A stretch of DNA of 64,000 nucleotides, taken from assembly GCA_945280365.1 (NCBI GenBank), contig CALYQD010000003.1:62001-126000 (forward strand), given 5' to 3'. The translations under genes and the position numbers were made by a program. The notes under the pieces were generated by a model. That model ran no database searches. It saw only the letters and a list, made by a program, of their open reading frames with translations, and was not told where the DNA came from. This document shows, one piece after another, positions 31,914-46,615 of the stretch. Source of the DNA: an uncultured Apibacter sp. GTDB lineage: Bacteria > Bacteroidota > Bacteroidia > Flavobacteriales > Weeksellaceae. Positions within the stretch are counted from its first letter, which is position 1. Every line of letters starts with the position of its first letter.

Positions 31914-33095
31914 ATGAGGAAAATTCTATTAGTACTGTTAACATTAGTTACGACTCAATCCTCAATATATGCTCAAGAGGATTTAATAAAAAAAATTATA
32001 AATAATAAATCAAATAATACTAATTTCCAATTTACTCTAGTCAAACAGCTTGATAACACTACTGTGAAACAACAAGGTTCATCCGGAACATGCTGGAGCT
32101 ATGCAGGAAATTCTTTTCTTGAGTCTGAAATTTATAAAAAACATAAACGCGTTCTAGATATAGCAGAAATCTATACTGCAAGAAAAACTTATGAAGAAAA
32201 GGCCAAAAATTATGTAATGATGGACGGGTTTTTAAATTATGGAGATGGCGGTTCATTGCATGATGTAATCAATATGTATAAAAAATATGGGATAATGCCC
32301 CAAGAAGCATATACTGGATTAATCAATGGAGCTGTAAAGAACAATTTTAAAGAAATGCAGATAGAGCTTAAAAATAATTTGGATAAAATTATAGCTAAAA
32401 AAGCTCCTATAAATACTAACTGGACTATAAATTTTTCATCAATATTAGATAAATATTTAGGAAAAGTTCCTGAAACATTTATATATAATGGAAAAGAGTA
32501 TACTCCCAAAACATTTGCCGAAGAGATAGTGGATTTAAATCCAGATGATTATATTGAAATTACCTCATTTAAAGATTACGAATACTATAAACAATTTTAT
32601 CCACCCTTGCCGGATAACTGGAGCGGAGATAAGATGTATAACATACCTATGGCTGAACTTACGGATTGTATAGATCATGCTTTATCATTAGGATATACCG
32701 TTTGCTGGGCAACTGATGTAAGTGAAGCATATTTCAGCTGGAAAAACGGACTGGCTTATGTTCCTGATACAAATCTATATGCAATATCTTCGGAAGAGCG
32801 GGCAAATTTATTTACACATCCAAAACCTGAGAAAATTATAACAGAAGAAATGCGTCAGGAAGCTATTAATAATAAATCAACAACTGATGATCATGCTATG
32901 CATATAGTAGGTATTTCAAAAGATCAAAACGGTAAAGAATATTATTTAATTAAAAATTCCTGGGGAGATACCAATGATTTCAAAGGATATTTATATGTAA
33001 CGAAAACTTACGTTCAATTTAAAACTACAGCAATTTTACTTAATAAAAATGCACTTCCTAAAAAATTAAGAAAAAAACTAAACTTAATGTCTTAA
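31914..33095 (+). CDS. Secreted C1-family cysteine aminopeptidase (PepC/bleomycin hydrolase-like)
   Basis: A 393-residue protein with an N-terminal signal peptide (cleavage near I-Y-A-Q). The papain-type catalytic set is intact: Cys60 in G-S-S-G-T-C-W-S-Y-A, His327 in D-D-H-A-M-H-I-V-G-I, and Asn348 in I-K-N-S-W-G-D. The closest family is bleomycin hydrolase/PepC (C1B). That family is normally cytoplasmic, so the exported form suggests degradation of peptides outside the inner membrane. It starts eight bases after lepB and is the last gene before the accessory island. Confidence 0.85.
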   Translation: MRKILLVLLTLVTTQSSIYAQEDLIKKIINNKSNNTNFQFTLVKQLDNTTVKQQGSSGTCWSYAGNSFLESEIYKKHKRVLDIAEIYTARKTYEEKAKNYVMMDGFLNYGDGGSLHDVINMYKKYGIMPQEAYTGLINGAVKNNFKEMQIELKNNLDKIIAKKAPINTNWTINFSSILDKYLGKVPETFIYNGKEYTPKTFAEEIVDLNPDDYIEITSFKDYEYYKQFYPPLPDNWSGDKMYNIPMAELTDCIDHALSLGYTVCWATDVSEAYFSWKNGLAYVPDTNLYAISSEERANLFTHPKPEKIITEEMRQEAINNKSTTDDHAMHIVGISKDQNGKEYYLIKNSWGDTNDFKGYLYVTKTYVQFKTTAILLNKNALPKKLRKKLNLMS

Positions 33096-33749
33096 AAATT
33101 TTTTAATTAATAAAAATTTCATGAGGTATGAGTAATTTTATGTCTCAAAAACCTATTTAACATAATATAAATTATAGGTAAATTAAATATTTTAAAATTA
33201 AGACAGTATTTACACATTTTCCTATAATGTCATATTATGTCTCCGCAAAAGCTCCGGGCTTCGCCTAAATAAAACTTTTCTGAGACAAACACATTTTACA
33301 GAGTTTTCCTATAATTTGTCATTATGTGTAAATAGCCGCGCAGCCAACCCGGTTTGTTTAAAAAATTTACAGCCTTTACAATAAAAAATTACGCTGTAAA
33401 TTTTTCTGAACAAATCCTACACACGGCCAGCCTGTGCTATTTAATTTTTTGGCCAACACCTGAGAAAAAAAAATTTATTTTTTTTATAACTTTTAAGGTG
33501 CTTTATTATATTTTTAATTTGAAAACATGACGAAAAATAAATGTTTGAGCGATAGCGAGTTTTTATTTTTCTTGAATTTTTTGTTTCTTTTTTTCACTTC
33601 TTTAATAAATTTTTAAGGAGTTCAAGAATGCTAAGCATTTGTCTCAAAACAAATGAATTAATTAATTTGTGAATACATAAAAATAATAATTCCTCTACTT
33701 TTAAAAAGAATGAAAAAGCTATTTCCTATTTAACATAATATTTAACCAT

Positions 33750-33953
33750 TCAAACCTTATTAATAACAATCCTTTTTTTACTATGTTTAATTACTATTTG
33801 GTCTCCGGTTCTGAAACCCGAATCTTGCAACCACTTGCCTGCCATACGTATTTCCGGAAAAGATATATAACGGAAACTGGCTCTTTTAAAATCCCTCTCA
33901 TATACCTTTATAATACGTATTTTGGCTTTGCTTTTATATTTACGAACTTCCAT
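33750..33953 (-). CDS. SymE-family toxin-like protein, copy 1
   Basis: A 67-residue basic protein. A lysine/arginine-rich N-terminal strand leads into the SymE core (F-P-E-I-R-M-A-G-K-W-L-Q-D-S-G-F, then G-D-Q-I-V-I and a final R-I-V-I). SymE proteins have an AbrB-like (SpoVT) fold and include an SOS-induced type I toxin repressed by an antisense RNA. Whether this one is toxic is unknown. I chose the ATG at 33953, which gives the usual family length; the open frame to 33983 adds ten residues. It differs from the other two copies at the last two residues. Confidence 0.7.
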   Translation of the reverse strand: MEVRKYKSKAKIRIIKVYERDFKRASFRYISFPEIRMAGKWLQDSGFRTGDQIVIKHSKKRIVINKV

Positions 33954-34101
33954 ATATTTCTGATTTTTTCTTTCTTTCTGCAAAGGAAGTTCTACCCTGC
34001 CCGATATCCAATTTTACAAACTGATTTTTTACCAAATACCATTGATTTTTTATCTTATATTTTATTTAACTATTTTGTATACTAGCCCAAAAATAAATTA
34101 G

Positions 34102-34109
34102 TACGTTTG
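34102..34109 (+). promoter_or_regulatory. -7 box of XRE copy 1
   Basis: TACGTTTG fits TAnnTTTG and ends four bases before the ATG of the broken XRE gene, the same place as in the two intact copies. Confidence 0.5.
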
Positions 34110-34113
34110 CCTT

Positions 34114-34266
34114 ATGACTATAGATAAGACAACATCCAGAAAGATACATCAAGGTAGAAATATTAAACGTTTTCGTGAAATATAAGGTATAAAACAGGAA
34201 GCGTTGGCTTTTGATATGAGAGATTCCCAGTCTTCTATATCTGATTATGAATATAAGGAAACATTC
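34114..34266 (+). pseudogene. XRE-family regulator, truncated copy
   Basis: The first 51 codons match the intact XRE genes at 37601 and 40556, but codon 24 is TAA (leucine in the others). Further changes disturb the helix-turn-helix (D-M-R-D-S-Q-S-S instead of D-M-G-V-S-Q-S-S). The homology stops abruptly after the E-T-x-x region, where unrelated sequence follows. It cannot make a repressor, so any control of the adjacent SymE gene from this copy is lost. Confidence 0.85.
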
Positions 34267-34278
34267 AATTAGTCAAAG

Positions 34279-34665
34279 AAATTTTTCAAATCGTTATCAT
34301 TTACATTATTAATCTAGATGCCTATCAAAAATAAATTAAAATTCCATTATTAAAAATACTAGACAATCTTGTCATAAATAATAAAATAATAACTATTATA
34401 GGGTAAAATAAAGATTATAAAATAAAAAAAATGTTAAATTCGTAACCAATACTCAATCTATATAATGGATTCACAAGATAAGCTAAAAAAAAATTCTGAT
34501 CATAAATTTGAAAAAGAAGTATCGTCTTTTCAATCAGATAATGAACTGTTTATTCAGGATGATTCTATCATAAGTAAACACAAAAAAAAAGCAAGAAACG
34601 CAAAACCGGTTCAAATCTTGGAAAATTATAACGGTTCAGATGAAGATTTGAAAAGTCTAGTAAAA
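34279..34665. repeat. Left copy of the GNAT/yciH start region
   Basis: Collinear with 46047-46449. It contains the first codons of the divergent GNAT gene (start codon on the minus strand), the whole spacer and the first 67 codons of yciH, with scattered substitutions and small gaps. The two copies flank about 11.8 kb in direct orientation. Confidence 0.85.
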
Positions 34666-35154
34666 AGTGATTTTAAATTTTGGGGGTGGGACAAAAAACC
34701 TAGGACAATGTTGCGTTTTATAAAACCAGGTGATATATTTTGCGTCAAACTGAATGATAAAAAATATATTTTCGGCAGAATTATTTCAAAAATATTTTTT
34801 GGTCGTGTTGCAGAGATTTTTAACTATGTATCATCAACGCCCGAAATAGAAGTCGAATACATTGATTCATCCAAGAGAATGTTTGCACCAATAGTATTAG
34901 ATAGTTATACGCTATTTGATCGGAAGTTTGAAAAAGAAGCAGATTGGCGGATTATAGGACATCAGAATGATTATATACCTACAGATGTTGATGATGTTTA
35001 TTTTACCTTCGGTGAAGGAGCATATTGTAAAAAGGTTGATATTTGGGATAATGACACCCTTATATCAGAAAGCGAGGCTAAAAAATTACCCAAATTAGCT
35101 CCTCGGTGTGATTTTGATGTGAAGCAGCTACTAAAAGAATATATAAATGAATAG
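34465..35154 (+). CDS. Chimeric protein: YciH/SUI1 N-terminus fused to Imm26-like immunity domain
   Basis: A 229-residue open frame of two parts. Residues 1-66 match the start of the intact yciH at 46245 (D-H-K-F-E-x-E-V-S-S, I-L-E-N-Y-N-G-S-D-E-D-L-K-S-L). Residues 68-229 are the first of four Imm26-like copies (G-D-I-F-C-V-K-L-N-D-K-K-Y-I-F-G-R). The seam lies at the codons where the other copies have ATG-AAT. The SUI1 fold itself is cut off, so the N-terminal part cannot work as a translation factor. The fusion keeps the yciH promoter region, which could drive the immunity array. Translation could also start internally. Confidence 0.75.
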   Translation: MDSQDKLKKNSDHKFEKEVSSFQSDNELFIQDDSIISKHKKKARNAKPVQILENYNGSDEDLKSLVKSDFKFWGWDKKPRTMLRFIKPGDIFCVKLNDKKYIFGRIISKIFFGRVAEIFNYVSSTPEIEVEYIDSSKRMFAPIVLDSYTLFDRKFEKEADWRIIGHQNDYIPTDVDDVYFTFGEGAYCKKVDIWDNDTLISESEAKKLPKLAPRCDFDVKQLLKEYINE

Positions 35155-35235
35155 TCAAATATCAAGTGTTCAAACTGATTTAAGGAGATATGTGTGTAAA
35201 GGGAATGACAGTAACAGAATAAAAAGGGACAGTTA

Positions 35236-35727
35236 ATGAATGATTTTAAATTTTGGGGATGGGATAAAAAACCTAGGACAATGTTACGTTTTATAAAACC
35301 AGGTGATATATTTTGCGTCAAACTGAATGATAAAAAATATATTTTCGGCAGAATTATTTCAAAAATATTTTTTGGTCGTGTTGCAGAGATTTTTAACTAT
35401 GTATCATCAACGCCCGAAATAGAAGTCGAATACATTGATTCATCCAAGAGAATGTTTGCACCAATAGTATTAGATAGTTATACGCTATTTGATCGGAAGT
35501 TTGAAAAAGAAGCAGATTGGCGGATTATAGGACATCAGAATGATTATATACCTACAGATGTTGATGATGTTTATTTTACCTTCGGTGAAGGAGCATATTG
35601 TAAAAAGGTTGATATTTGGGATAATAAAACCTTTATATCAGAAAGCGAGGCTAAAAAATTACCCAAATTAGCTCCTCGGTGTGATTTTGATGTGAAGCAG
35701 CTACTAAAAGAATATATAAATGAATAG
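35236..35727 (+). CDS. Imm26-like immunity protein, copy 2
   Basis: A 163-residue soluble protein with the Imm26 signature: K-K-P-R-T-M-L-R-F-I-K-P-G-D-I-F-C-V-K-L, then Y-I-F-G-R-I-I-S-K-I-F-F-G-R. Imm26 proteins protect producer cells against toxin domains of polymorphic toxin systems (contact-dependent or type VI-like delivery). No toxin gene lies in the window, so it may defend against neighbours' toxins. It lies 81 bases after copy 1. An AAAAAGGGA purine tract lies just upstream, a possible ribosome site. The family call is from recalled motifs. Confidence 0.75.
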   Translation: MNDFKFWGWDKKPRTMLRFIKPGDIFCVKLNDKKYIFGRIISKIFFGRVAEIFNYVSSTPEIEVEYIDSSKRMFAPIVLDSYTLFDRKFEKEADWRIIGHQNDYIPTDVDDVYFTFGEGAYCKKVDIWDNKTFISESEAKKLPKLAPRCDFDVKQLLKEYINE

Positions 35728-35808
35728 TCAAATATCAAGTGTTCAAACTGATTTAAGGAGATATGTGTGTAAAGGGAATGACAATAATAGAATAAAAAGG
35801 GACTGTTA

Positions 35809-36300
35809 ATGAATAATTTTAAATTTTGGGGATGGGATAAAAAGCCTCGGACAATGTTACGTTTTATAAAACCAGGTGATATATTTTGCGTCAAACTGAA
35901 TGATAAAAAATATATTTTCGGCAGAATTATTTCAAAAATATTTTTTGGTCGTGTTGCAGAGATTTTTAACTATGTATCATCAACGCCCGAAATAGAAGTC
36001 GAATACATTGATTCATCCAAGAGAATGTTTGCACCAATAGTATTAGATAGTTATACGCTATTTGATCGGAAGTTTGAAAAAGAAGCAGATTGGCGGATTA
36101 TAGGACATCAGAATGATTATATACCTACAGATGTTGATGATGTTTATTTTACCTTCGGTGAAGGAGCATATTGTAAAAAGGTTGATATTTGGGATAATAA
36201 AACCTTTATATCAGAAAGCGAGGCTAAAAAATTACCCAAATTAGCTCCTCGGTGTGATTTTGATGTGAAGCAGCTACTAAAAGAATATATAAATGAATAG
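35809..36300 (+). CDS. Imm26-like immunity protein, copy 3
   Basis: Identical in length to copy 2 and differing from it in one residue at the N-terminus (N-N-F-K-F instead of N-D-F-K-F). The coding and spacer sequences are nearly the same as copy 2 base for base, so this duplication is very recent or is kept uniform by gene conversion. Tandem exact copies would be expected to expand and contract by recombination. Confidence 0.75.
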   Translation: MNNFKFWGWDKKPRTMLRFIKPGDIFCVKLNDKKYIFGRIISKIFFGRVAEIFNYVSSTPEIEVEYIDSSKRMFAPIVLDSYTLFDRKFEKEADWRIIGHQNDYIPTDVDDVYFTFGEGAYCKKVDIWDNKTFISESEAKKLPKLAPRCDFDVKQLLKEYINE

Positions 36301-36381
36301 TCAAATATCAAGTGTTCAAACTGATTTAAGGAGATATGTGTGTAAAGGGAATGACAATAATAGAATAAAAAGGGACTGTTA

Positions 36382-36876
36382 ATGAATAATTTTAAATTTT
36401 GGGGATGGGATAAAAAGCCTCGGACAATGTTACGTTTCATAAAACCAGGTGATATATTTTGCGTCAAACTGAATGATAAAAAATATATTTTCGGCAGAAT
36501 TATTTCAAAAATATTTTTTGGTCGTGTTGCAGAGATTTTTAACTATGTATCATCAACGCCCGAAATAGAAGTCGAATACATTGATTCATCCAAGAGAATG
36601 TTTGCACCAATAGTATTAGATAGTTATACGCTATTTGATCGGAAAACCGAAAAAGAAGGGGATTGGCGGATTATAGGACATCAGAATGATTATATACCTA
36701 CAGATGTTGATGATGTTTATTTTACCTTCGGTGAAGGAGCATATTGTAAAAAGGTTGATATTTGGGATAATAAAACCTTTATATCAGAAAGCGAGGCTAA
36801 AAAATTACCCAAATTAGCTCCTCGGTGTGATTTTGATGTGAAGCAGCTACTAAAAGAATATATAAAACTTGAATAG
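36382..36876 (+). CDS. Imm26-like immunity protein, copy 4
   Basis: A 164-residue protein, the most divergent of the four. It has R-K-T-E-K-E-G-D at the middle and ends in Y-I-K-L-E instead of Y-I-N-E, because the repeat stops just before its end and different sequence follows. The changes are clustered, which looks like a block exchange rather than scattered drift. It is probably the original right-hand end of the array. Confidence 0.75.
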   Translation: MNNFKFWGWDKKPRTMLRFIKPGDIFCVKLNDKKYIFGRIISKIFFGRVAEIFNYVSSTPEIEVEYIDSSKRMFAPIVLDSYTLFDRKTEKEGDWRIIGHQNDYIPTDVDDVYFTFGEGAYCKKVDIWDNKTFISESEAKKLPKLAPRCDFDVKQLLKEYIKLE

Positions 36877-37137
36877 TCAAATTTCTAGCGTTGGCTTTGT
36901 TTGTCTTTATATGTTCCGTAAAGGTTGCGCTATAATGATATAGGAATTTACCTTCCATATTAAAATACTATAATAATTTATAAAAATCAGTATTACTGAA
37001 CAAGATGTGCATAACACACTCTTTGTAGTTTATATAAACTAGTTGTACCAAAATCATAATACTATTAGTAGAGTTTCAAAGAAAATATCTTAAATTATAA
37101 ATTAGATGAAGCAACTGCTAAAATATCTAAAGTTTCA
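36877..37137. other. Spacer between the Imm26 array and module copy 2
   Basis: No gene seen. Short protein-like fragments on the plus strand cannot be assigned. The repeat module begins near 37138. Confidence 0.4.
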
Positions 37138-37240
37138 AGACAAATGAATTAATTAATTTGTGAATACATAAAAAATAATAATTCCTCTACTTTTAAAAGA
37201 ATGAAAAAGCTATTTCCTATTTTACATAATATTTAACCAT

Positions 37241-37444
37241 TCAAGCCTTAGTAATAACAATTCTTTTTTTACTATGCTTGATTACTATTTGGTCTCCGGT
37301 TCTGAAACCCGAATCCTGCAACCACTTGCCTGCCATACGTATTTCCGGAAAAGATATATAACGGAAACTGGCTCTTTTAAAATCCCTCTCATATACCTTT
37401 ATAATACGTATTTTGGCTTTGCTTTTATATTTACGAACTTCCAT
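37241..37444 (-). CDS. SymE-family toxin-like protein, copy 2
   Basis: A 67-residue basic protein identical to copy 3 and nearly identical to copy 1. The SymE/AbrB-like core is intact (P-E-I-R-M-A-G-K-W-L, G-F-R-T-G-D-Q-I-V-I). A longer frame reaches 37522 but begins with TTG or GTG and adds 26 residues. The ATG at 37444 gives the normal family length. An XRE regulator starts divergently 156 bases away. The pair is a candidate toxin/repressor unit, unlike the enterobacterial SymE-SymR RNA control. Confidence 0.72.
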   Translation of the reverse strand: MEVRKYKSKAKIRIIKVYERDFKRASFRYISFPEIRMAGKWLQDSGFRTGDQIVIKHSKKRIVITKA

Positions 37445-37588
37445 ATATTTCTGATTTTTTCTTTCTGCAAAGGAAGTTCTACCCTGCCCGATATTCAATT
37501 TTACAAACTGATTTTTCACCAAACATCACTGGTTTTTTATCTTATATTTTATTTCACTTTTTTGTATATTAGCCCAAAGATAAATTAG

Positions 37589-37596
37589 TACATTTG
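37589..37596 (+). promoter_or_regulatory. -7 box of XRE copy 2, predicted leaderless start
   Basis: TACATTTG fits TAnnTTTG exactly and ends four bases before the ATG at 37601. Transcription should begin at or next to the A of the start codon. TTTG at 37561-37564 is a possible but distant -33 element (24-base gap). Confidence 0.55.
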
Positions 37597-37600
37597 CCTT

Positions 37601-38008
37601 ATGACTATAGATAAGACAACATCCAGAAAGATACATCAAGGTAGAAATATTAAACGTTTTCGTGAAATATTAGGTATAAAACAGGAAACGTTGGCTTTTG
37701 ATATGGGAGTTTCCCAATCTTCTATATCAGATTATGAATCTAAAGAAACATTAGACGATAAAGTATTGGAAAAAATTGCCGGATTTTTAAAAGTTCCTAC
37801 AGAAGCAATTAAAAATTTTGATGAAGAACAGGCGGTGAATATTATTGCAAATACCTTTACAAGTAATGATACATCTACCTTAAATGCAATAAATCCACAT
37901 TGTACTTTTAATCCAGTTGATAAAGTAATGGAACTTTTTGAACGTTTATTGGAAAGCGAAAAAGAGAAAACCCAACTTATGAAGGATATTCTGGATAAGA
38001 TGAAGTGA
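37601..38008 (+). CDS. XRE-family helix-turn-helix regulator, copy 2
   Basis: A 135-residue DNA-binding protein. Residues 18-70 form the helix-turn-helix (N-I-K-R-F-R-E-I-L-G-I-K-Q-E-T-L-A, M-G-V-S-Q-S-S-I-S-D-Y-E). A variable middle follows, then an amphipathic C-terminal helix (V-D-K-V-M-E-L-F-E-R-L-L and K-E-K-T-Q-L-M-K-D-I-L). It is the likely repressor of the divergent SymE-like gene. The sequence is nearly identical to copy 3 up to about codon 54 and then diverges strongly. A membrane-protein gene follows 137 bases later. Confidence 0.85.
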   Translation: MTIDKTTSRKIHQGRNIKRFREILGIKQETLAFDMGVSQSSISDYESKETLDDKVLEKIAGFLKVPTEAIKNFDEEQAVNIIANTFTSNDTSTLNAINPHCTFNPVDKVMELFERLLESEKEKTQLMKDILDKMK

Positions 38009-38145
38009 TAAAGATTTTTGAGATAAATAATTTACTATATTTTTAATGCAGTCAATCAAGGAAATAGGCAATGCTGAGGGGCAATCTATCAGCAAATAAA
38101 TAGCGAAACTTAAAAGATAATATAGAGCATCTATATAAATTAGGT

Positions 38146-38916
38146 ATGTTAATGAAAAAAAATATATATAGTTTAATCTTTTTATTTACTCTTAATTTAC
38201 CTTTATTTATATTTATTTTCATATTGAGTATAATACCTGAAGATAAATTTTTGAGTACAATACTTTATACTGTTATATCTTTTTTTTCTTATTTAATTAT
38301 TACTATTACATTAAGAAAAATAAGCTACAAATACAATAGCAAAGTTTTTAGTAAAATATGTAGAATAATTGAATTTCCATTGGATCTATTATTTATTTAT
38401 GTGAGATTTTTCGATCCTATAACGAGATTTCAATTTTCCTTATTACTATATTTTAGTATCTGTAATTTTATACCAGCAATTATATTCATTACATATTTTA
38501 TACTACAATACCCAAATATAAATTATGAATTATTTGTTTATTTATATATAACTCTTTATGTCATAATTTCTATTTTATTTAGAACTAATATTTTGCACTT
38601 AATATATAGCTTTCATTTTACTAACGCTAATACATTTAGTTCAAAAAAAATAACTCTATATATACTTTCTGAAAATAATATAAAAGCAATTATTTATTTT
38701 TCTTATTTTTTGTTACTAATATTAATAAATATTTACAATTTTAATAATTTTCCTCTCTTTAAAAATATAAATATAGATAAATCTGTACTTCAATCTTTTG
38801 CTACATATATTGCTTTTGAACGTTTTTATAATCACATAGAAAAAGTAAATTTTAAGCTTTCAGAATTCATAAATAAAATTTTAAGGGCAATGATAAGTGA
38901 ACTAAAAAATCGATAA
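38146..38916 (+). CDS. Uncharacterised multi-pass membrane protein (module 2 cargo)
   Basis: A 256-residue, very hydrophobic protein with about six predicted membrane helices (starting at residues 8, 36, 100, 128, 178 and, less clearly, 65). The cytoplasmic tail has N-H-I-E-K-V-N-F-K-L-S-E-F. No domain is recognised. Base composition is even more A/T-rich than the island average. The next gene starts five bases after its stop, so the two form an operon. ATG at 38146 and 38152 are both possible starts. Membrane effectors are common in abortive-infection units, but nothing here proves that role. Confidence 0.6.
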   Translation: MLMKKNIYSLIFLFTLNLPLFIFIFILSIIPEDKFLSTILYTVISFFSYLIITITLRKISYKYNSKVFSKICRIIEFPLDLLFIYVRFFDPITRFQFSLLLYFSICNFIPAIIFITYFILQYPNINYELFVYLYITLYVIISILFRTNILHLIYSFHFTNANTFSSKKITLYILSENNIKAIIYFSYFLLLILINIYNFNNFPLFKNINIDKSVLQSFATYIAFERFYNHIEKVNFKLSEFINKILRAMISELKNR

Positions 38917-38920
38917 AGCT

Positions 38921-39532
38921 ATGATAGAAAATTACTTATTTACTTTTTTAATATCTGCAATAGGTGCAGGTATTGGAGCTTATTTAGTACAGAAATTTAA
39001 AAATGTAGCTACTAAAGAAGATATTGCAGAAATAACAAAGAACCAAAAAGAAGTAGAACATGTTATAAATTAAAAATTTAATAACGAGCAAGCTATATTA
39101 GAAGAACAGAGAAAAGTTATAATTAATTTTTATAATCAAGTTTATATTTACAAAAATCATATAGTTACCTTAGGATTGAATGTATTATTAAAATATAGAG
39201 AATTTGAAGAAAATATAAATGATTTTAATTCTATTAGAAAAGAATTTAGTAATGTATTATTAGCATCTGCTAATATTAATTTAATGATTAGAAACGAAGA
39301 TATATTAAAATTGGTAAATTTAATTATTGAGATTCAAGATTGTTATATTGATATGTTTTTAGAGTTTATATATACCCAAAATGAAATCGGAAATAAACAA
39401 GAAGAAATTTCAAAAATAAATATTTTAAGAGATAAATTTGTTAAAAAGCGTGATGCTATTAATTTTAGGTTAGATTTTGTTTTACAACAATATTTAGTTT
39501 ATTCAAAATCAATTTTGAATTATAATAAATAA
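38921..39532 (+). pseudogene. Membrane-anchored coiled protein with one internal stop (module 2 cargo)
   Basis: One frame of 203 codons is open except for a TAA at 39071 (codon 51). The first part has a glycine-rich membrane helix (I-S-A-I-G-A-G-I-G-A-Y-L-V) and a charged helix. After the stop the same frame continues with helical sequence (K-V-I-I-N-F-Y-N-Q-V-Y, I-L-K-L-V-N-L-I-I-E-I). CAA to TAA is the simplest origin. Either the gene is recently broken, or a 50-residue membrane peptide and a separately started 118-residue protein (ATG at 39179 region) are made. No known family recognised. Confidence 0.7.
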
Positions 39533-40195
39533 TATAATCTTTTAGGTTTCTTTTCCCCTCCCCTTTTTTAAATTAAATAGCTCAAAGCTATGTAACATAA
39601 TGCAAGAACATTATAGGAAAATTAAACATTTCAGAATTCTGGCAGAATTAAAAGATTTTCCTATAATGTCATATTATGTCTGCGCAAAAGTTACTGATTT
39701 CTATTAAATACAACTTTTCTAAGACAAATACAGATTATATTAGTTTTCCTATAATTTGCCATTATATATAAGTAATCGCGTAGCCAACTCGTTTTGTTTA
39801 AAAAATTTACAGTATTTAAAAGCAGAAAATTACGCTTCGAATTTTTCTACACAAATTAAATTCCACGCACGGTCAGCTGTGATATTTAATTTTTTTAGCC
39901 AACACCTGAGAAAAGAAATTTTATTTTTTAAATGACTTTTAAGGTGCTTTATTATATTTTTAATTTGAAAACATGACGAAAAATAAATGTTTGAGCGATA
40001 GCGAGTTTTTATTTTTCTTGAATTTTTTGTTTCTTTTTTTCACTTCTTTAATAAATTTTTAAGGAGTTCAAGAATGCTAGGCATTTGTCTCAAAACAAAT
40101 GAATTAATTAATTTGTGAATACATAAAAAATAATAATTCCTCTACTTTTAAAAGAATGAAAAAGCTATTTCCTATTTTACATAATATTTAACCAT

Positions 40196-40399
40196 TCAAG
40201 CCTTAGTAATAACAATTCTTTTTTTACTATGCTTGATTACTATTTGGTCTCCGGTTCTGAAACCCGAATCCTGCAACCACTTGCCTGCCATACGTATTTC
40301 CGGAAAAGATATATAACGGAAACTGGCTCTTTTAAAATCCCTCTCATATACCTTTATAATACGTATTTTGGCTTTGCTTTTATATTTACGAACTTCCAT
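40196..40399 (-). CDS. SymE-family toxin-like protein, copy 3
   Basis: Same 67-residue protein as copy 2, with identical coding bases. It is divergent from the XRE gene at 40556, and the shared promoter region is also identical to that of copy 2. Because copies 2 and 3 cannot be told apart in this part, any repressor made from one module should be able to act on both. A frame open to 40477 without an ATG start is the alternative. Confidence 0.72.
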   Translation of the reverse strand: MEVRKYKSKAKIRIIKVYERDFKRASFRYISFPEIRMAGKWLQDSGFRTGDQIVIKHSKKRIVITKA

Positions 40400-40543
40400 A
40401 TATTTCTGATTTTTTCTTTCTGCAAAGGAAGTTCTACCCTGCCCGATATTCAATTTTACAAACTGATTTTTCACCAAACATCACTGGTTTTTTATCTTAT
40501 ATTTTATTTCACTTTTTTGTATATTAGCCCAAAGATAAATTAG

Positions 40544-40551
40544 TACATTTG
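40544..40551 (+). promoter_or_regulatory. -7 box of XRE copy 3, predicted leaderless start
   Basis: TACATTTG lies four bases before the ATG at 40556, the same arrangement as copy 2. Confidence 0.55.
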
Positions 40552-40555
40552 CCTT

Positions 40556-40969
40556 ATGACTATAGATAAGACAACATCCAGAAAGATACATCAAGGTAGA
40601 AATATTAAACGTTTTCGTGAAATATTAGGTATAAAACAGGAAACGTTGGCTTTTGATATGGGAGTTTCCCAATCTTCTATATCAGATTATGAATCTAAAG
40701 AAACATTAGACGATAAAGTGTTAGAAAAAATTGCCGGATTCTTAAAAGTTCCTGTGGAAGCCATCAAAAATTTTGATGAAAATTCAGCTATTAATGTTAT
40801 AGCTAATACATTTAACAATCACGACCATTCGAACCCTCAATTCGCTAGTATAATTAATAATTCGCCAAACTTTAATCCACTTGATAAAATGGTGGAGCTT
40901 TATGAACGTATGCTTCAACAACAAAAAGAAATGATTGAAAAGTTGGAGAGGTTGATTGATAAAAAGTAA
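40556..40969 (+). CDS. XRE-family helix-turn-helix regulator, copy 3
   Basis: A 137-residue protein. The DNA-binding part is the same as copy 2, so both should read the same operator. The C-terminal half is different in sequence but keeps the same plan: K-V-P-V-E-A-I-K-N-F-D, a polar variable middle, F-N-P-L-D-K-M-V-E-L-Y-E-R and a coiled C-terminal helix (E-M-I-E-K-L-E-R-L-I). Shared heads with different dimer or partner-binding tails could give module-specific sensing. The gene is followed by a leftover tail of the copy-2 type. Confidence 0.85.
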   Translation: MTIDKTTSRKIHQGRNIKRFREILGIKQETLAFDMGVSQSSISDYESKETLDDKVLEKIAGFLKVPVEAIKNFDENSAINVIANTFNNHDHSNPQFASIINNSPNFNPLDKMVELYERMLQQQKEMIEKLERLIDKK

Positions 40970-40981
40970 AAAACTTTTATC

Positions 40982-41038
40982 AGAAAACTAAAAAGAGAAA
41001 AACAACTTATGAAAGATATTTTTGATAGAATGAAGTAA
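40982..41038 (+). pseudogene. Orphan XRE C-terminal tail
   Basis: Nineteen codons ending in TAA read R-E-K-Q-L-M-K-D-I-F-D-R-M-K. This matches the last residues of XRE copy 2 (K-E-K-T-Q-L-M-K-D-I-L-D-K-M-K). It has no start codon for its frame and sits 12 bases behind the complete copy 3 gene, as if a new tail had been inserted in front of the old one. Confidence 0.75.
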
Positions 41039-41060
41039 TGATATTATAAATATTTGAAAT

Positions 41061-42134
41061 ATGAGTGAAATTAATAAACTAAACTTAATAAGCTCTAATA
41101 TATTAGAAATACATTATTGGTTTAATGATGATACTCATTCTATGGATGCAAATATTCAGAATAAATGTGAGTATGAGGTACTAACTATAATAAAAGAAGT
41201 CGCTAAACTTTTATCTATAGATATTAATATTGAAACAGAACCTATTGGAGAAGGAGGTCTCAAAAAATGGTTGAAAATAGTTTTAAAAAAAGAAAATAAG
41301 AAAGGAACAATAACTTCATCTATCGTTACTACTCTCATAGTTATTATTTTAACAAAATCTATTGAGAAACTTTCTGAAGATAAAGAAATGATTAATCTTA
41401 AAAAAGAAAATTTAAGACTTGAAAATGAGATACTTTATGAAAATAAAGAAATGATTAATCTTAAAAATGAAAATTTAAGACTTGAAAATGAGAAACTTTA
41501 TGAAGATAAAGAAATTAATGATCTTCTAAAAGAAAAATTAATACTTGAAAATGAAGATTTAAAACAAAATAAAGGTGAATATATTGAATCAATTGAATCT
41601 AGTACATACATAAAAAAAAGAAAATCAAACTTTTATGAGACTTTAGAAAAATATCCTAAAATTGAAAAAATTTCTTTTTCTGTAGTAGATAAAGATAAAA
41701 ATATCCAAGCAGCCGAAGGTTTTATAGAAAAAAAGGATTTTAATAATTTTATATTAGCATCAGATAATATAGAAACTTTTGAAGTAGAAAATGCTAAAAT
41801 TGAAATTATAGCCCCTGTTTTAAAAAAACAAAATTATAAATGGATGGGATATTATAATGATGAAGTAATATCATTCAATATGAAATCCGATGAATTTAAA
41901 AATTCAGTGGAAAATAAAGAAATTGAATTTATAAATGGTTTTTCTATTGAATGTCATCTAATAATTAAACAAAAAATAAATAATGAAGGTATTGTAATAA
42001 ATTACCAATACGATGTTACAAGAGTAAATTATTACTTTAAAAATGATATACCAAAAGAAACTGAAGAAGGAAAACTTTATAAATATATTAAAAAGGGTCA
42101 AGAAAATCAATTAAATTTATTTAAAGAAGATTAA
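41061..42134 (+). CDS. Uncharacterised protein with membrane segment and repeated coiled coil (module 3 cargo)
   Basis: A 357-residue protein in three parts. Residues 1-80 have a compact domain with H-S-M-D-A, C-E-Y-E-V-L-T-I-I-K-E-V-A and I-E-T-E-P-I-G-E-G-G-L. I believe this recurs in unrelated bacterial hypotheticals but cannot name it. Residues 90-108 form a hydrophobic segment (S-S-I-V-T-T-L-I-V-I-I-L). Residues 106-168 are a coiled coil built of three 21-residue repeats. The C-terminal 190 residues are mixed strand/helix with K-W-M-G-Y-Y-N-D-E-V-I. It looks like a sensor or effector with a cytoplasmic C-terminal domain. Confidence 0.6.
   Translation: MSEINKLNLISSNILEIHYWFNDDTHSMDANIQNKCEYEVLTIIKEVAKLLSIDINIETEPIGEGGLKKWLKIVLKKENKKGTITSSIVTTLIVIILTKSIEKLSEDKEMINLKKENLRLENEILYENKEMINLKNENLRLENEKLYEDKEINDLLKEKLILENEDLKQNKGEYIESIESSTYIKKRKSNFYETLEKYPKIEKISFSVVDKDKNIQAAEGFIEKKDFNNFILASDNIETFEVENAKIEIIAPVLKKQNYKWMGYYNDEVISFNMKSDEFKNSVENKEIEFINGFSIECHLIIKQKINNEGIVINYQYDVTRVNYYFKNDIPKETEEGKLYKYIKKGQENQLNLFKED
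41376..41564 (+). repeat. Three 63-bp in-frame repeats
   Basis: Units start at 41376, 41439 and 41502 and encode E-x-K-E-M-I-N-L-K-x-E-N-L-R-L-E-N-E-type coiled-coil segments. Units 1 and 2 are close to identical in DNA; unit 3 has drifted. The unit length keeps the frame, so copy number could change without breaking the gene. Confidence 0.85.
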
Positions 42135-42783
42135 TAAAAGTAATTCTAGATGCAAATAATATAACATATAACCTTAGAAACTCAGGGCTTATTTAATGGG
42201 TCAATATAATAAAATTCCTCTCCTACTCTTTTTTAATTTAAATAGCTCAAAGCTATGTAACATAATGCAAGAACATTATAAAAAAATTAAATTTTTAGCT
42301 TTGTCGTAAAATTTTATACCTTTGCTTATCTAATTTAATAGATTTAATATCTATTAACAATAATAAAAAAACCTGATCAAATATAGATCAGGTCTAATTA
42401 GAATAAATATTTGGTTATAATTCATTGCATGGTTAACTCAGAACTAACAGAAAAAACAATTTTCTCTATAAAGGCTTCTTTTTTTTAAATTTTGAAAACT
42501 AGATTCTCCTTGTTCAGTATCTTATTAATTAAATTTATCTGCTTTTATCTGCTTTATATGGATATATCTTCCTTTAATAATTCATTTGGAGCAATTTATT
42601 ATCAGTAATATTAACTTCATATTTCACACACCTATCACGTCTTTTAACAAATTATAAAAATTAATTCCTGAAATTTATTTATTCTCTTTATTTTAGAAAG
42701 AATATTTAAAAACATGATCAAGATTTATATAATTATACTCGTATACTGAGATAACTAAATATTTTTTAGTTTATCCGCTCTTT
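42135..42783. other. Spacer with a partial module repeat and decayed minus-strand sequence
   Basis: Positions 42219-42290 repeat the first 70 bases of module copy 3 (AAATAGCTCAAAGCTATGTAAC and onward), then stop. A hairpin ACCTGATC / GATCAGGT at 42371-42393 preceded by an A run would terminate a minus-strand transcript. To its right the minus strand shows short protein-like pieces with stops (E-A-F-I-E-K-I-V-F-S-V-S-S-E), probably a lost gene I cannot identify. Confidence 0.5.
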
Positions 42784-43059
42784 CTACTTATTTTTTTCTT
42801 CTTCTTTATCTTTTTCTTTTTTAGTATAATTTTTAGCTTCATTTAAAATTTGTTTATAGGTTTTTCCTGAAGCCATTTCAAATCCATTTAATAAAACCCA
42901 TCCTAGCAATAATTCTTCATCTTCTTTATTTAATTTTTTACTTTCAATAATAGCAGCCATATCTTTATCAAAATTTTTATCATTAAATTTTTTATTTAAT
43001 GGATTTGAACAAGATATTAATAAAATAGAAAGTATTGAAAATAATAAGAAATTTTTCAT
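42784..43059 (-). CDS. Small putative lipoprotein
   Basis: A 91-residue protein with a hydrophobic leader ending in a lipobox (L-L-I-S-C, Cys about residue 17), so probably lipid-anchored. The mature part is short, charged and helical (L-N-K-E-D-E-E-L-L-L-G-W-V-L-L-N-G-F) with a Lys/Glu-rich tail. No family recognised. It stands alone between module 3 and the hydrolase gene. Confidence 0.6.
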   Translation of the reverse strand: MKNFLLFSILSILLISCSNPLNKKFNDKNFDKDMAAIIESKKLNKEDEELLLGWVLLNGFEMASGKTYKQILNEAKNYTKKEKDKEEEKNK

Positions 43060-43456
43060 ATAATAGTTTATTTAAATTTTTTACAAATTTAATAAAATAA
43101 TATTAATTTATCTAATTTAATTAATTATTTTTTTAATTATATGCTAATATAAATTTAAAAATTGCTTTTTTAGGCAATTTAAATAATTAAAATACATAAA
43201 AAAGTCCAATACCCTGTATTTCATACTCAAATCATACATAAAAAAAGATAATTTATAGTTTCCTCTCTCCTAAAGCATATATATTTTAAAAAAATCTCCT
43301 AAAAATTGAGCTCTTCAGAAAAACAAAATGAACTTTACAGCAAAATAAAAAAGAAATTCAAATTTTACTTTTGTCTACAATAATTATTAATTATATCACC
43401 TATAATAAAAAAAGTTATATAAAAATTAAGTTAAATAAATTTTAATTAGCCAAACA
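43060..43456. other. AT-rich spacer before the hydrolase gene
   Basis: No gene, clear promoter or hairpin was seen in these 400 bases. Confidence 0.35.
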
Positions 43457-44494
43457 ATGAAAAATATTATAACAGTTTTATCAATATTTTTATTCACATT
43501 AGTTATATCACAATCTAAAAAAAATCAAGAAAAAATGAAAACCATTGAAAAGTATACTTTTGACTTAAGCGATAAAGTTACAAGACAAAAAATAACTTTT
43601 AAAAATCGATATGGAATAACTCTTACCGGCGATCTCTATGTTCCCAAAAAGCATAACAATAAACCTTTTCCGGCATTAGCCATTTGCGGCCCCTTTGGAG
43701 CTGTCAAAGAACAATCATCTGGTTTATATGCAAATCAATTGGCTGAAAGAGGTTTTGTAACCCTGGCTTTCGACCCCTCTTTTACAGGAGAGAGTGGAGG
43801 AAACCCTCGTAATGTTGCTTCTCCGGATATCAATACGGAAGATTTTAGTTCGGCTGTAGATTTCCTTGGAATTCAGAAAATAGTAGATAGAAATCAAATC
43901 GGTATTATTGGAATTTGCGGGTGGGCAGGTTTCGCTCTTAATGCTGCTGCCGTAGATAAACGAATAAAAGCTGTCGTTACTACCAGTATGTATGATATGT
44001 CCAGAGTAATGGCAAAAGGTTACTATGATAAAATGACTAAAGAAGAACGCACAAAAATATTGGAAAAATTGGGAGAACAACGTTGGAAAGACGCCGAATC
44101 GGGTTTATTTCATGCCGGAGAATTAATAAATCCTGAAAAGTTAAAAGGAGATGAACCACAATTTATTAAAGATTATTACGAATATTACCGTACTTCTAGA
44201 GGATATCATGCACGTTCCTTAAATTCAACCGGCTCCTGGAATGCCACCAATCCGTTGTCATTTATGAATATGCCAATATTGACCTATATTACAGAAATAT
44301 CGCCACGTCCAATTCTTTTAATAGCGGGAGAAAACGCACATTCTCGATATTTCAGCGAAGATGCATATAAATCTGCCTCAGAACCTAAAGAATTATTAAT
44401 TATTCCAAACGCTGTTCATGTCGATTTATACGATAAAATCAGTAGCATTCCCTTTGATAAGATTGAAAACTTTTTTAAAGAAAATTTAAAATAA
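43457..44494 (+). CDS. Secreted alpha/beta hydrolase (YcjY / dienelactone hydrolase-like)
   Basis: A 345-residue protein with a signal peptide (cleavage near L-V-I-S-Q-S). The hydrolase domain has the opening Y-G-I-T-L-T-G-D-L-Y-V-P, L-A-I-C-G-P-F-G-A-V-K-E-Q, and F-D-P-S-F-T-G-E-S-G-G. At the nucleophile elbow it has G-I-C-G-W-A-G, so the nucleophile appears to be Cys rather than Ser, as in the YcjY-like group. The acid and His sites fall in L-I-A-G-E-N-A-H-S-R and N-A-V-H-V-D-L-Y. The base composition is less A/T-rich than the cargo genes just upstream. Substrate unknown. Confidence 0.8.
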   Translation: MKNIITVLSIFLFTLVISQSKKNQEKMKTIEKYTFDLSDKVTRQKITFKNRYGITLTGDLYVPKKHNNKPFPALAICGPFGAVKEQSSGLYANQLAERGFVTLAFDPSFTGESGGNPRNVASPDINTEDFSSAVDFLGIQKIVDRNQIGIIGICGWAGFALNAAAVDKRIKAVVTTSMYDMSRVMAKGYYDKMTKEERTKILEKLGEQRWKDAESGLFHAGELINPEKLKGDEPQFIKDYYEYYRTSRGYHARSLNSTGSWNATNPLSFMNMPILTYITEISPRPILLIAGENAHSRYFSEDAYKSASEPKELLIIPNAVHVDLYDKISSIPFDKIENFFKENLK

Positions 44495-44633
44495 CACGTT
44501 CAATTATTTAAAATTTTTAGAATAATTAGAATCTTAGATGAAAATTATTCTAAAACTCCACCCTAATTTTAGTAATTCACTAAATCTTTATAACTTAGTA
44601 ATCAATTAAATAATAATTATAAAATTATAGAAC

Positions 44634-45233
44634 ATGTATTTTTTGGAATTAGCAAAAAACAGGTATACTACAAAAAAATACGATTCTTCAAAAAAAGTAT
44701 CTGAAGAAAACATTCAAAAATTAAAAGAAATATTGCGTCTTAGCCCCTCCTCTATTAATAGTCAACCTTGGGAATTCATTTTTATATCTGAAGAATCCCT
44801 TAAAAGTCAGTTGTCTCAGGCCTCAGAATTTAACGAAAGTAAAATTAAAGAATGTAGCCATTTAATTGTTTTCACCGCTCTTAATAATATCAAAAAATTT
44901 GAAAAAGATATACTCGCTTACTTACCGGAAGGCAATATTGGTTACTATAACCAAGTAATAAAATCACAATCAGATTTTGAGATAAAATCATGGTTTCAAA
45001 AACAAGTATATTTATCTTTAGGGTTCTTTATGAGTGCTTGTGCCAGTTTAGGTATTGACAGCACCCCGATGGAAGGTATTGATAACAAAAAATATGATGA
45101 AATCCTGAAATTAGAAGATTATTCCACACTTTTTGCTGTAGCGATCGGATATAGAGATCCTAATGATACCAATCAACCTTCTATAACTCCAAAATCCAGA
45201 TTAGATATAGATACGGTTATAAAAACTAAATAA
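44634..45233 (+). CDS. Nitroreductase-family NAD(P)H oxidoreductase (NfsB-like)
   Basis: A 199-residue FMN enzyme of the nitroreductase fold. It has the N-terminal FMN-phosphate motif R-Y-T-T-K-K-Y-D, R-L-S-P-S-S-I-N-S-Q-P-W-E-F, a dimer-interface helix Y-L-S-L-G-F-F-M-S-A-C-A and a final A-V-A-I-G-Y-R-D-P-N. These enzymes reduce quinones, flavins or nitro compounds; NfsB/dihydropteridine-reductase-like is closest. A terminator follows. Confidence 0.88.
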   Translation: MYFLELAKNRYTTKKYDSSKKVSEENIQKLKEILRLSPSSINSQPWEFIFISEESLKSQLSQASEFNESKIKECSHLIVFTALNNIKKFEKDILAYLPEGNIGYYNQVIKSQSDFEIKSWFQKQVYLSLGFFMSACASLGIDSTPMEGIDNKKYDEILKLEDYSTLFAVAIGYRDPNDTNQPSITPKSRLDIDTVIKTK

Positions 45234-45252
45234 GAAATAAGAAATTTTTTTT

Positions 45253-45287
45253 AATACTATTTATACTATATAAATAGTATTTTTTTT
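45253..45287 (+). terminator. Terminator after the nitroreductase gene
   Basis: AATACTATTTATA pairs with TATAAATAGTATT, then a run of T. Confidence 0.75.
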
Positions 45288-45317
45288 GTAAAAAAAATCA
45301 ATATTTAAAATAAAGAA

Positions 45318-45440
45318 GATTGAAAAATAAATATTTGAGCGAGAGCAAGTTTTTATTTTTTTGAAATTTTGTTACTTCATTTTAAGAGTTAATTTCATCG
45401 ATATATTAATATTCAAGAATGCATAGAATTTTACAAGACA
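45318..45440 (+). repeat. Diverged fragment of the island repeat
   Basis: GAAAAATAAATATTTGAGCG, AGAGCAAGTTTTTATTTTTT and ATTCAAGAATGC align with the GAGCGATAGCGAG part of module copies 1 and 3 (33531-33630, 39975-40075) with many differences. It suggests the island once extended this far right. Confidence 0.6.
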
Positions 45441-45549
45441 AAAAAATATTTAATTAAACAAATTCCTAATTTTTAGTAATAAAATAATATAATTCAATAT
45501 TTAAAAAAAATTATATCTAATAAAAGCAATATATAATAAGTTTGTTAAA

Positions 45550-46068
45550 TCACTTCTTTATCTCTAATTTCATCATAATATCCGTTTGTTTATCATCCCC
45601 TAATACAAAAATATGTTGATCAAATTCAACAAATCCGTTTTTCTTATAAAAATGTAGAGCTTTAGCATTTTTTTCCCAAACACCCAACCATATATAGCTA
45701 CATCTTTTCTCTTCAGCTATGGCAAGAGCTTTTTCAAATAACTGCTGTCCTACCCTTTGTTTCTGATAAGCATTCAAGACATAAATCCTTTCAATTTCCA
45801 AACTATTATAATCCTTACTCTCAGTTTGGGCTGTTCCAAAATTAATTTTTAAATATCCAATCACTTTATTTCCCGCTTCAGCAAAATAAAATTCTGAATC
45901 AGGATTGGTAAGTTCCGATTCCATTTGTAGATTATTAAAACTATTATGCACATAAATATTCATATTCTCTTTCGTATTTGAACTTCCGAAAGTTTCGACA
46001 AATGTTTTAATGCTTATATCCTGAAGAACATCCAAATCAGCCAAATAAATTTTTCTAATCGTTATCAT
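45550..46068 (-). CDS. GNAT-family N-acetyltransferase
   Basis: A 172-residue acetyl-CoA-dependent acyltransferase. It has the GNAT A motif (I-E-R-I-Y-V-L-N-A-Y-Q-K-Q-R-V-G-Q-Q-L-F, containing the Q/R-x-x-G-x-x acetyl-CoA loop) and the B motif near L-G-V-W-E-K-N-A-K-A-L-H-F-Y-K-K-N-G-F. This resembles RimI- or PaiA-like small-molecule acetylases. The substrate is unknown. It is divergent from yciH, and its first codons are part of the duplicated region found again near 34290. Confidence 0.88.
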   Translation of the reverse strand: MITIRKIYLADLDVLQDISIKTFVETFGSSNTKENMNIYVHNSFNNLQMESELTNPDSEFYFAEAGNKVIGYLKINFGTAQTESKDYNSLEIERIYVLNAYQKQRVGQQLFEKALAIAEEKRCSYIWLGVWEKNAKALHFYKKNGFVEFDQHIFVLGDDKQTDIMMKLEIKK

Positions 46069-46449
46069 TTACATTATTAATTTAGATACCTATCAAAAAT
46101 AAATTAAAATTTCCTTATTAAAAAATCTATCCGGCATAACAAACAATCTTATCATAAGTAGTAAAAATATTAGCTATTCTTGAATACAATAAAGATTAGA
46201 AATTAAAAAATTCCTAAATTCGTAACCAATACTCAATCTATATCATGGATTTACAAGATCAGCTAAAAAAAATATTTCCCGATCATAAATTTGAAGAAGA
46301 AGTATCGTCTTCACAATCGGAAAATGAACTGTTTATGCAGGATGACCCAATCGTTTGTAAATACGAAAAAAAAGGAAGAAACGGAAAACCGGTTACAATT
46401 TTGGAAAATTACAATGGTTCAGATGAAGATTTAAAAAGTCTGGCAAAAG
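46047..46449. repeat. Right copy of the GNAT/yciH start region
   Basis: Direct-repeat partner of 34279-34665; here both genes are complete. Confidence 0.85.
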
Positions 46450-46580
46450 AAATCAAATCCAAATTAGGCGTTGGTGGTTCAGTAAAAGATGATACTATCG
46501 TAATCCAAGGGAATTACCGAGATAAAATTATGGATATTTTAAAAGAAAAAGGATTTTCCATAAAACGTGTCGGAGGATAA
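46245..46580 (+). CDS. yciH: SUI1/YciH-family translation initiation factor
   Basis: A 111-residue protein related to eukaryotic eIF1. The N-terminal tail (about 50 residues) is acidic. The SUI1 domain follows: N-G-K-P-V-T-I-L-E-N-Y-N-G, L-A-K-E-I-K-S-K-L-G-V-G-G-S-V-K-D, I-V-I-Q-G-N-Y-R-D and K-x-K-G-F. By analogy it checks start-codon choice on the ribosome. A second, diverged copy of its first 67 codons is fused to Imm26 at 34465. The next gene begins 35 bases later. Confidence 0.9.
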   Translation: MDLQDQLKKIFPDHKFEEEVSSSQSENELFMQDDPIVCKYEKKGRNGKPVTILENYNGSDEDLKSLAKEIKSKLGVGGSVKDDTIVIQGNYRDKIMDILKEKGFSIKRVGG

Positions 46581-46615
46581 AAAAGTATAAAATCTATCAT
46601 AAAACCATACCATTT

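Follow-up and report, generated by a model that had tools for sequence, protein, structure and literature searches.

Why should the same two-gene head stand three times in close succession on one bacterial chromosome, each time in front of unrelated genes? The locus that raises this question lies in a stretch of 64,000 nucleotides, here called the window (G000:C3:62001-126000; G and L numbers denote our genomes and loci), from the 2.57-Mb genome of an uncultured Apibacter sp., a gut bacterium. Each head pairs a SymE-like gene with a divergent regulator gene of the XRE family and is followed by its own set of genes, the cargo. Here we propose that the three heads belong to Xer-dependent (Xer-exploiting) defence cassettes that were stacked at dif, the chromosome dimer resolution site, and later reshuffled between their near-identical heads, a reading to which we give a probability of roughly 0.6. 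The units would form a tandem cassette array on the XerC-arm side of dif. A first-pass annotation of the letters had suggested an exchangeable cargo slot behind each head, and our comparisons support this cassette idea.

The array has a fixed edge, and that edge is dif. Scanning the non-coding lead of unit 1 for motifs revealed a 28-bp dif-like sequence with XerC arm, centre and XerD arm (33155-33182, reverse strand), which forms the start of the lead; we identify it as the chromosomal dif with more confidence than we attach to the Xer-dependent cassettes. Its 24-base core is present in one copy per genome in seven of nine Apibacter genomes (six exact, one with one mismatch), with no second place at up to three mismatches in those seven, meaning that one putatively working dif has been kept beside the units. 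The core was not found in G007 and G008, assemblies of ~150 and ~230 contigs. Guanine-cytosine (GC) skew in 8-kb stretches of the window is positive in all five stretches of 1-40000 and negative in all three of 40001-64000, so the sign changes within ~7 kb of dif. In G005, eight of the nine stretches preceding dif have positive skew and nine of the ten between 0.92 and 1.97 Mb have negative skew, the last stretch (2.13 Mb) being positive again. The entire XerD arm is common to the window site and to the dif of E. coli. A survey of the class with CCTATAATTTAYATTATGTTAA at one mismatch or fewer was positive in 102 of 395 genomes, 100 of them with a single copy and two with two copies; the reversed pattern gave 0 matches. 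An earlier report gives a predicted dif for 19 of 19 Bacteroidetes (PMC3025954).

The heads follow dif on its XerC side. The first-pass annotation had described a module of lead, SymE-like gene and XRE regulator occurring three times. A SymE-like gene on the reverse strand and a divergent XRE gene on the forward strand are present as claimed at all three places, but XRE 1 is broken and head 2 has lost all but roughly the final 100 bp of the lead. The SymE-like genes lie at 33750-33953 (start at MEVRKYK, set by comparison), 37241-37444 (PF08845, 5.7e-11; 42.8 bits against the curated profile, whose cut-off is 29) and 40196-40399 (from the list of open reading frames (ORFs) and comparison). The XRE genes comprise a pseudogene at 34114-34293 with one TAG and one TAA, whose match covers residues 1-59 only, and two intact regulators at 37601-38008 (HTH_3, 1.2e-11) and 40556-40969 (HTH_3, 7.2e-12). 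Copies 2 and 3 are nearly identical, as had been noticed (37.13-37.80 kb and 40.09-40.75 kb, 99% over 667 bases); the same DNA of head 2 is 95% identical to head 1 (33.64-34.27 kb), and a fourth close head (94%) lies outside the window at G000:C3:57 kb. The lead of unit 1 (33155-33740) has an 87% repeat at 39.6-40.2 kb, that of unit 3 spans 39621-40187, and both of the lead fragments reported further out exist, one at 42.2 kb (78 bp, 90%) and a diverged one at 45.3 kb (88% over 49-58 bp). The latter is an old relic between nitroreductase and GNAT genes (45322-45377, forward strand, 88%), and G002 has an XRE remnant at the equivalent place (L064:8668-8952). The gap between SymE and XRE contains conserved stretches, with no palindromic operator worked out. 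With an antisense RNA opposite symE, like SymR, in mind, Rfam was run on 32900-46600 and gave no match of any kind; lack of a curated match does not mean lack of an RNA.

Read outward from the chromosome, the layout runs from the XerD arm, centre and XerC arm of dif through the lead, an XerD half-site, the divergent SymE/XRE pair and the cargo to a variant dif-like site. Leads with inverted dif-like sites are present in the window and in G004, L082, L086, L087 and L088; those of unit 1 are at 33218-33245 and, by site scan, 33305-33335 (both forward strand), and those of unit 3 at 39657 and 39745. Homologous leads occur in G004, and lead fragments in G001, G002 and G005. The XerD half-site ATTATGTTAAATAGG of unit 1 (33725-33739, reverse strand) stands 10 bp beyond the SymE stop codon; window heads 2 and 3 have the half-site with one base changed. 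Among 16 half-sites listed, ten fall 6-10 bp past the SymE stop and span Apibacter and Chitinophagaceae (window head 1, L068 twice, L082 twice, L086, L087 twice, L088 and L091), two are 204 bp (L089) and 141 bp (L090) past it, and those in L064, L065, L066 and L069 have no intact SymE at that place.

The far end of the cargo is also marked. Cargo ends at variant dif-like sites in dif orientation in G000, G004, L082 and L088, with TTATGTTAAAT replaced by TTATGTTACAT in Apibacter and by TTATGTTACAAT in L082 and L088. Both window examples are on the reverse strand, one closing unit 2 (39587-39620, its 20-base core exact in G004 too) and one closing unit 3 (42252-42285, XerC arm eroded). Searched at 0-1 mismatch in the nine genus genomes, the cargo-end pattern gave five places (three in G004, two in G000), every one of them on the XerC side, at most 28 kb from dif and in dif orientation; two mismatches added three more, one in that same region and two elsewhere in G000. 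Lead fragments of G004 reach 27 kb out on the XerC side, and none was found in 31 kb of its XerD side. The 57 kb head of G000 has a lead fragment kept on the XerD side.

That cargo is exchanged at dif is a conclusion we hold more firmly than the Xer-dependent cassettes themselves: six Apibacter genomes have six different cargo sets at the one single-copy site. G000 carries an Imm26 array, a membrane protein and a PDC-S42 protein. G002 carries a PDC-S06 protein (1e-237) with lead and XerD half-site in front and no SymE or XRE, and A. muscae an XRE gene, a HamB-like helicase (1.5e-48, Hachiman-like) and a 265-aa partner matching nothing. G004 has two tandem heads, one with a ThsB-like protein (1.8e-78) next to a TIR protein and the other with an AriA-like ATPase (1.1e-21) and an AriB-like protein (3.8e-13), which together are PARIS-like. 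In G005 a degraded head is followed by a GNAT-like protein and PDC-S56 (2.5e-196), and G001 has lead remnants and a lone membrane protein. Among the six, a SymE/XRE head stands at dif only in G000, G004 and, degraded, G005. SymE relatives are present in four of the nine genus genomes, and a six-frame profile search of the A. muscae locus placed the nearest SymE 6.8 kb from the dif unit; SymE is therefore not obligatory. The earlier proposal to look in related genomes for one head with different downstream genes was thus borne out; neither three cargo sets in a fixed order nor a single strain-specific duplication was seen, and near-identical heads in Chitinophagaceae also lead into unrelated genes. 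Restriction of the head to one strain can be rejected, with relatives in Apibacter, Flavobacteriaceae and Chitinophagaceae. No clean empty site was found in the related genomes examined. Separately, A. muscae has arsR-arsD-arsA-like genes (by eye) between two family XRE copies, the first paired with SymE (L066:11691-15618).

Within the window, the Imm26-like array named earlier was confirmed by the two of its four ORFs that were scanned, both PF15428 (6.8e-17 and 1.1e-16). The four ORFs of this cargo 1 (34465-35154, 35236-35727, 35809-36300 and 36382-36876, forward strand) form 573-bp tandem repeats of 95-98% identity, and PADLOC gave no match for ORF 35236-35727. The first is fused in frame to the upstream region and first ~70 codons of a SUI1 gene, copied from ~12 kb away (34267-34665, 83% to 46035-46448). 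Cargo 2 (38146-39532, forward strand) consists of a membrane protein (38146-38916) and small ORFs at 38921-39073 and 39176-39532; PADLOC matched neither 38146-38916 nor 39176-39532 and Pfam did not match 38146-38916, and its homologue (69%) is the membrane protein beside dif in G001. Cargo 3 (41061-42134, forward strand) encodes a coiled-coil protein of the defence-candidate family PDC-S42 (PADLOC PDLC05016, E 1.7e-97, residues 11-356). Judged by these family matches, the window cargo may function in defence.

The heads also bear traces of recombination. In DNA, the helix-turn-helix (HTH) part of the XRE gene is 98-99% identical when three G000 copies are set against each other and 88-92% identical in the remaining comparisons of Apibacter heads, and the tails are 62-81% identical; the best match of each G000 tail is a G004 tail (78-81%), not another G000 tail (64-72%). 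XRE 3 compared with XRE 2 is 98% identical in the HTH part and 64% in the tail, and beyond its stop lies a relic of the other tail type (40970-41041, forward strand), recognised by setting its read-out, which ends in REKQLMKDIFDRMK, against the tail of head 2. The conserved HTH part, the mosaic tails and this relic fit gene conversion at the head together with swapping of the tail along with the cargo. They would also suit a defence island in the rapidly changing terminus region that grew by tandem duplication and by homologous recombination from head to head, with dif and the dif-like sites as bystanders in a repeated lead. Such an island would account for heads 2 and 3 being 99% identical in front of unrelated cargo, for the mosaic tails and the second tail persisting after XRE 3, for the Imm26 tandem repeats and the SUI1 piece copied over 12 kb, and for the finding that none of 10 window proteins tested belongs to a recombinase or phage structural family. 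We consider it doubtful: the cargo-end sites retain dif-like sequence and orientation, all on one side of dif; the same layout recurs in Chitinophagaceae; and dif loci free of SymE, described below, have XerD half-sites 580-936 bp away on the XerC side (seven loci) versus none on the XerD side and none in controls.

Beyond Apibacter, eleven of 80 SymE loci have SymE beside an XRE of the head's family, and at seven non-Apibacter loci of Bacteroidota dif is followed in turn by an XerD half-site, SymE, XRE and cargo, with Gabija, SIR2-HerA and methyltransferases among the cargo. Beside the eleven heads we found Gabija (GajA 5.3e-283, GajB 3.8e-237), SIR2 (5e-89) with HerA (5.1e-117), MTase_II (8e-84 and 1.6e-133), PDC-S22 (3.3e-136), PDC-S13 (2.7e-135) and PDC-S02. 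Two Niabella loci, L082 and L086, are 81-85% identical over head and flank and differ in cargo. Overall, 11 of 14 dif-side arrays contain a defence model (PADLOC, E at most 1e-20), though the gene that matches in L086 and L088 is not the one adjoining the head; at that threshold no match was obtained in G001 (0 of 1 protein), L089 (0 of 2) and L091 (0 of 2). Genes beside orphan G000 XREs gave 0 of 10 defence matches, and genes on the opposite side of SymE 0 of 10 at 1e-20, with two of the ten matching weakly (2.1e-6 and 6.8e-11).

The link to dif holds here as well. In nine of 25 Bacteroidota SymE loci picked by record title (L077, L080, L082 and L086-L091), dif is inside the fetched flank and always on the SymE strand, against an expected 0.08 of 25 if genomes are 4.5 Mb. 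The dif of L077 is 7.4 kb away and part of a different unit, and L080 combines SymE and dif with an NsnA-like protein (5.2e-31), no family XRE and no half-site. No dif was found in 55 loci of other phyla, 20 other SymE loci of the class, 14 other G000 stretches or 40 control stretches. XRE relatives on plasmids came from two Parabacteroides records (42-44%). As a separate observation, Flavobacterium supellecticarium (L076:9454-13815) has a Cas9-like gene (1453 aa, by eye) ~1.3 kb past the SymE match on its far side, with no dif recognised.

Is the attraction to dif a property of the SymE head? To the 60 dif loci sampled regardless of SymE (from 104 listed places in the class, those near contig ends and an arbitrary rest being left out) the answer appears to be no. 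Seven of them have XerD half-sites in dif orientation within 6 kb on the XerC side, at 580-936 bp, with 0 on the XerD side and 0 of 20 controls. Inverted XerC arms number 8 on the XerC side and are missing from the XerD side and from the controls; for inverted XerD arms the corresponding counts are 11, 5 and 0. We compared the sides with PADLOC at 1e-20, using up to two ORFs of at least 150 aa nearest dif per side at the 60 loci; four of 118 XerD-side proteins were left out by a residue limit. On the XerC side 87 families match among 113 proteins, and the 25 matched families shown are in the main models of Gabija and of methyltransferases, with a single member in nearly every case. The XerD side gave five matches among 114 proteins (DpdF twice, PsyrT, DndA and SspA), which we read as housekeeping relatives. 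XerC-side cases include a Gabija pair without SymE whose two members are 88% and 78% identical to those of L087 (L237, genome G175), type IIG restriction (L236), a type I methyltransferase (L267), MzaE (L264) and a GajB-type helicase with PDC-S18 (L272). From these cases, defence genes appear to be attracted to dif more widely than in the SymE lineages. The dif-side leads of L265 and L267 share a 96% identical stretch and a common protein of 156-162 aa, after which one has a 1412-aa protein without PADLOC match and the other the type I methyltransferase; this may be a second family of dif cassettes without SymE.

How might such units arrive? A full unit comprises the XerC arm, a lead with inverted dif-like sites, the XerD half-site, SymE/XRE, cargo and a variant dif-like site. 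No integrase was found among the window proteins run against Pfam or PHROGs, a part of the ORFs. As no recombinase is recognised in the units, entry at dif would probably proceed through the host's XerC and XerD, in the manner of integrative mobile elements exploiting Xer (IMEX), and perhaps, by analogy with CTXphi, as single-stranded DNA folded at the lead. Insertion would restore a working dif next to the newest unit and displace older units outward; near-identical heads could then recombine, giving homogenised heads and exchanged XRE tails and cargo. The XRE protein is most likely a repressor of the head and cargo promoters, and SymE could be either a toxin that penalises loss or a DNA-binding aid to recombination. 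In the predicted single-strand fold, the first inverted site of unit 1 pairs with dif (z -3.2), and the unit 3 lead folds with z -4.95. With the other stretches joining dif or a cargo-end site to the first inverted site, all seven of which were picked because they contain the site pair, the values are -3.2, -4.95, -3.37, -5.01, -7.12, -6.31 and -6.56, and three controls gave -0.60, -0.24 and -0.12.

Several observations weigh against the Xer-dependent cassettes. Beside dif itself, no more than 8 of 14 arrays fold at -12.5 kcal/mol or lower; of 59 ordinary dif sites, 12 are equally stable on the XerC side, in slightly different windows, and the two sides of these 59 sites have similar energies, so folding is not specific. 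The cargo-end pattern is present in two of the nine genus genomes and was found in none of the other seven, and its centre is longer than that of dif by ~4 bp in Apibacter and ~1 bp in L082 and L088; given the longer centre, the site may be a dead scar. The most damaged window unit is the one nearest dif, contrary to an order with the newest nearest. SymE heads also occur off dif, at G000:C3:57 kb on the other side and inverted, and with no dif in the stretch examined at G000:C2:27 kb, L071, L075, L076, L117, L187 and L188; in the XRE tree the dif heads are not one clade (5 changes). SymE was present at 0 of the 60 sampled dif loci, which excludes it as a universal marker of dif cassettes, and same-orientation XerC arms are not enriched there (one case on the XerC side against four on the XerD side and one in controls). 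As to cargo, the PtuA-like fragment of L086 (5e-27) lies beyond a transposase, the methyltransferase of L088 lies beyond the first cargo-end site with the gene adjoining the head unmatched, PADLOC at 1e-10 left unmatched five of ten additional cargo proteins encoded next to dif sites that lack SymE, and PDC families are defence candidates, not proven systems. Finally, searches for SymE in viral contigs, for XRE in phages and for lead DNA in plasmids found none.

The last result bears also on the idea that the units are what remains of single-stranded DNA phages, or of their satellites, after integration at dif and loss of the phage genes, with defence loci left behind. Microvirus-like proviruses at dif-like sites in Bacteroidetes are described in PMC3091885, and filamentous and tailless Vibrio prophages at dif with defence genes beside a regulator in PMC11630473; the inverted site pair resembles that of CTXphi, and the exact dif 22-mer occurs in 25 viral-contig stretches. 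For 10 window proteins, the PHROGs matches were nevertheless limited to regulators, one family of HTH DNA-binding proteins and families whose function is unknown, with no filamentous phage genes; the 25 viral stretches (XerC-side flank of at most 1 kb, many shorter) had no lead-type half-site, and viral contigs had no SymE relative. This origin therefore seems unlikely to us. A search of viral contigs with the Chitinophagaceae cargo-end site gave nothing. In six viral contigs the exact dif 22-mer lies almost equally far from one end, as if the element were integrated at dif (L304, L314, L317 and L320 (576), L319 (578) and L309 (586)).

The Xer-dependent cassettes are best read as a variant of dif-module and IMEX elements. 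IMEX of the CTXphi type have no integrase, lie adjacent to dif, carry a folding inverted dif-like pair and form tandem arrays. The Apibacter units resemble them in having no integrase recognised among the window proteins scanned, in standing beside dif, in their inverted dif-like pair, with a predicted fold of a stability that some ordinary dif sites also reach, and in their tandem arrays; they differ in that no phage structural genes were seen, in the defence-like cargo behind SymE/XRE and in the Bacteroidota host. CTXphi integrates in single-stranded form with XerC/XerD, according to PMC3091885. Acinetobacter dif/pdif modules, as described in PMC12907356, carry resistance genes between C/D and D/C sites beyond the main dif locus; they too are chromosomal gene modules bounded by Xer sites, often stacked and including toxin-antitoxin and HTH genes, whereas the Apibacter array abuts the main dif, has cargo-end sites in dif orientation and mostly defence-like cargo, and shares a SymE/XRE head. 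As described in PMC11630473, Vibrio dif prophages share the hotspot at dif, defence genes in an accessory locus often flanked by a regulator, and a restored site; unlike them, the window yielded no phage structural gene among the proteins tested. The SymE family is that of E. coli SymE/SymR (PMC1891008), with the difference that a divergent XRE gene partners SymE here and no Rfam match was found in the region.

E. coli symE sits among restriction genes. Mobile integrons would be comparable: their cassettes pile up at a single fixed site of the chromosome, the single-stranded sites are folded, and the recombinase is of the tyrosine family. Unlike in integrons, no IntI or attC was noticed in the ORF list, no dedicated search having been made; host XerCD and dif would stand in for them. 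One may tentatively go further, to a generalisation that we hold with less than even confidence: an integron-like platform in which dif would be the insertion site, XerC/XerD of the host the integrase and foldable leads the cassette sites, and at which Bacteroidota would stack exchangeable defence systems at the terminus, with SymE/XRE as a switch for control or retention in some lineages and different heads elsewhere. A full-text literature search, with most subscription papers and all preprints outside its scope, retrieved no report of phage-free Bacteroidota dif defence cassettes or of the SymE/XRE head. Our findings suggest that the cell's own chromosome-separation enzymes let it collect defence genes. 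They point to a precise single-copy place where such genes gather in some Bacteroidota and to a testable route without an integrase; if this is true, turnover of defence genes would be tied to chromosome dimer resolution at cell division. Since dif is easily located in genomes, new defence genes can be sought around it, with window cargo 1 and 2 as candidates.

The XRE family itself extends beyond these heads. G000 has 15 intact XRE paralogues, 11 of them without SymE and most of these beside housekeeping genes by eye, so that the notion of every family member heading cargo is rejected. These orphans, together with SymE genes of other Bacteroidota that often have other HTH neighbours and no clear cargo, might suggest that SymE/XRE is a free-standing toxin-antitoxin or regulator pair with incidental cargo nearby. 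We judge this very improbable, with defence cargo in 11 of 14 dif-side arrays versus 0 of 10 genes beside orphan XREs. Several of the stand-alone paralogues have, in place of SymE, a divergent protein of ~90-120 aa with a motif like YKQLGFTLLSLLNTCQT, a second partner type (for example L014:3662-3964, L016:5160-5525 and L019:3757-4032). The same XRE gene occurs, together with its flanking small gene, on two contigs, G000:C10:1-9000 (L017) and G000:C9:91001-97100 (L016), the latter locus also containing PAAR-like and toxin-like ORFs by eye.

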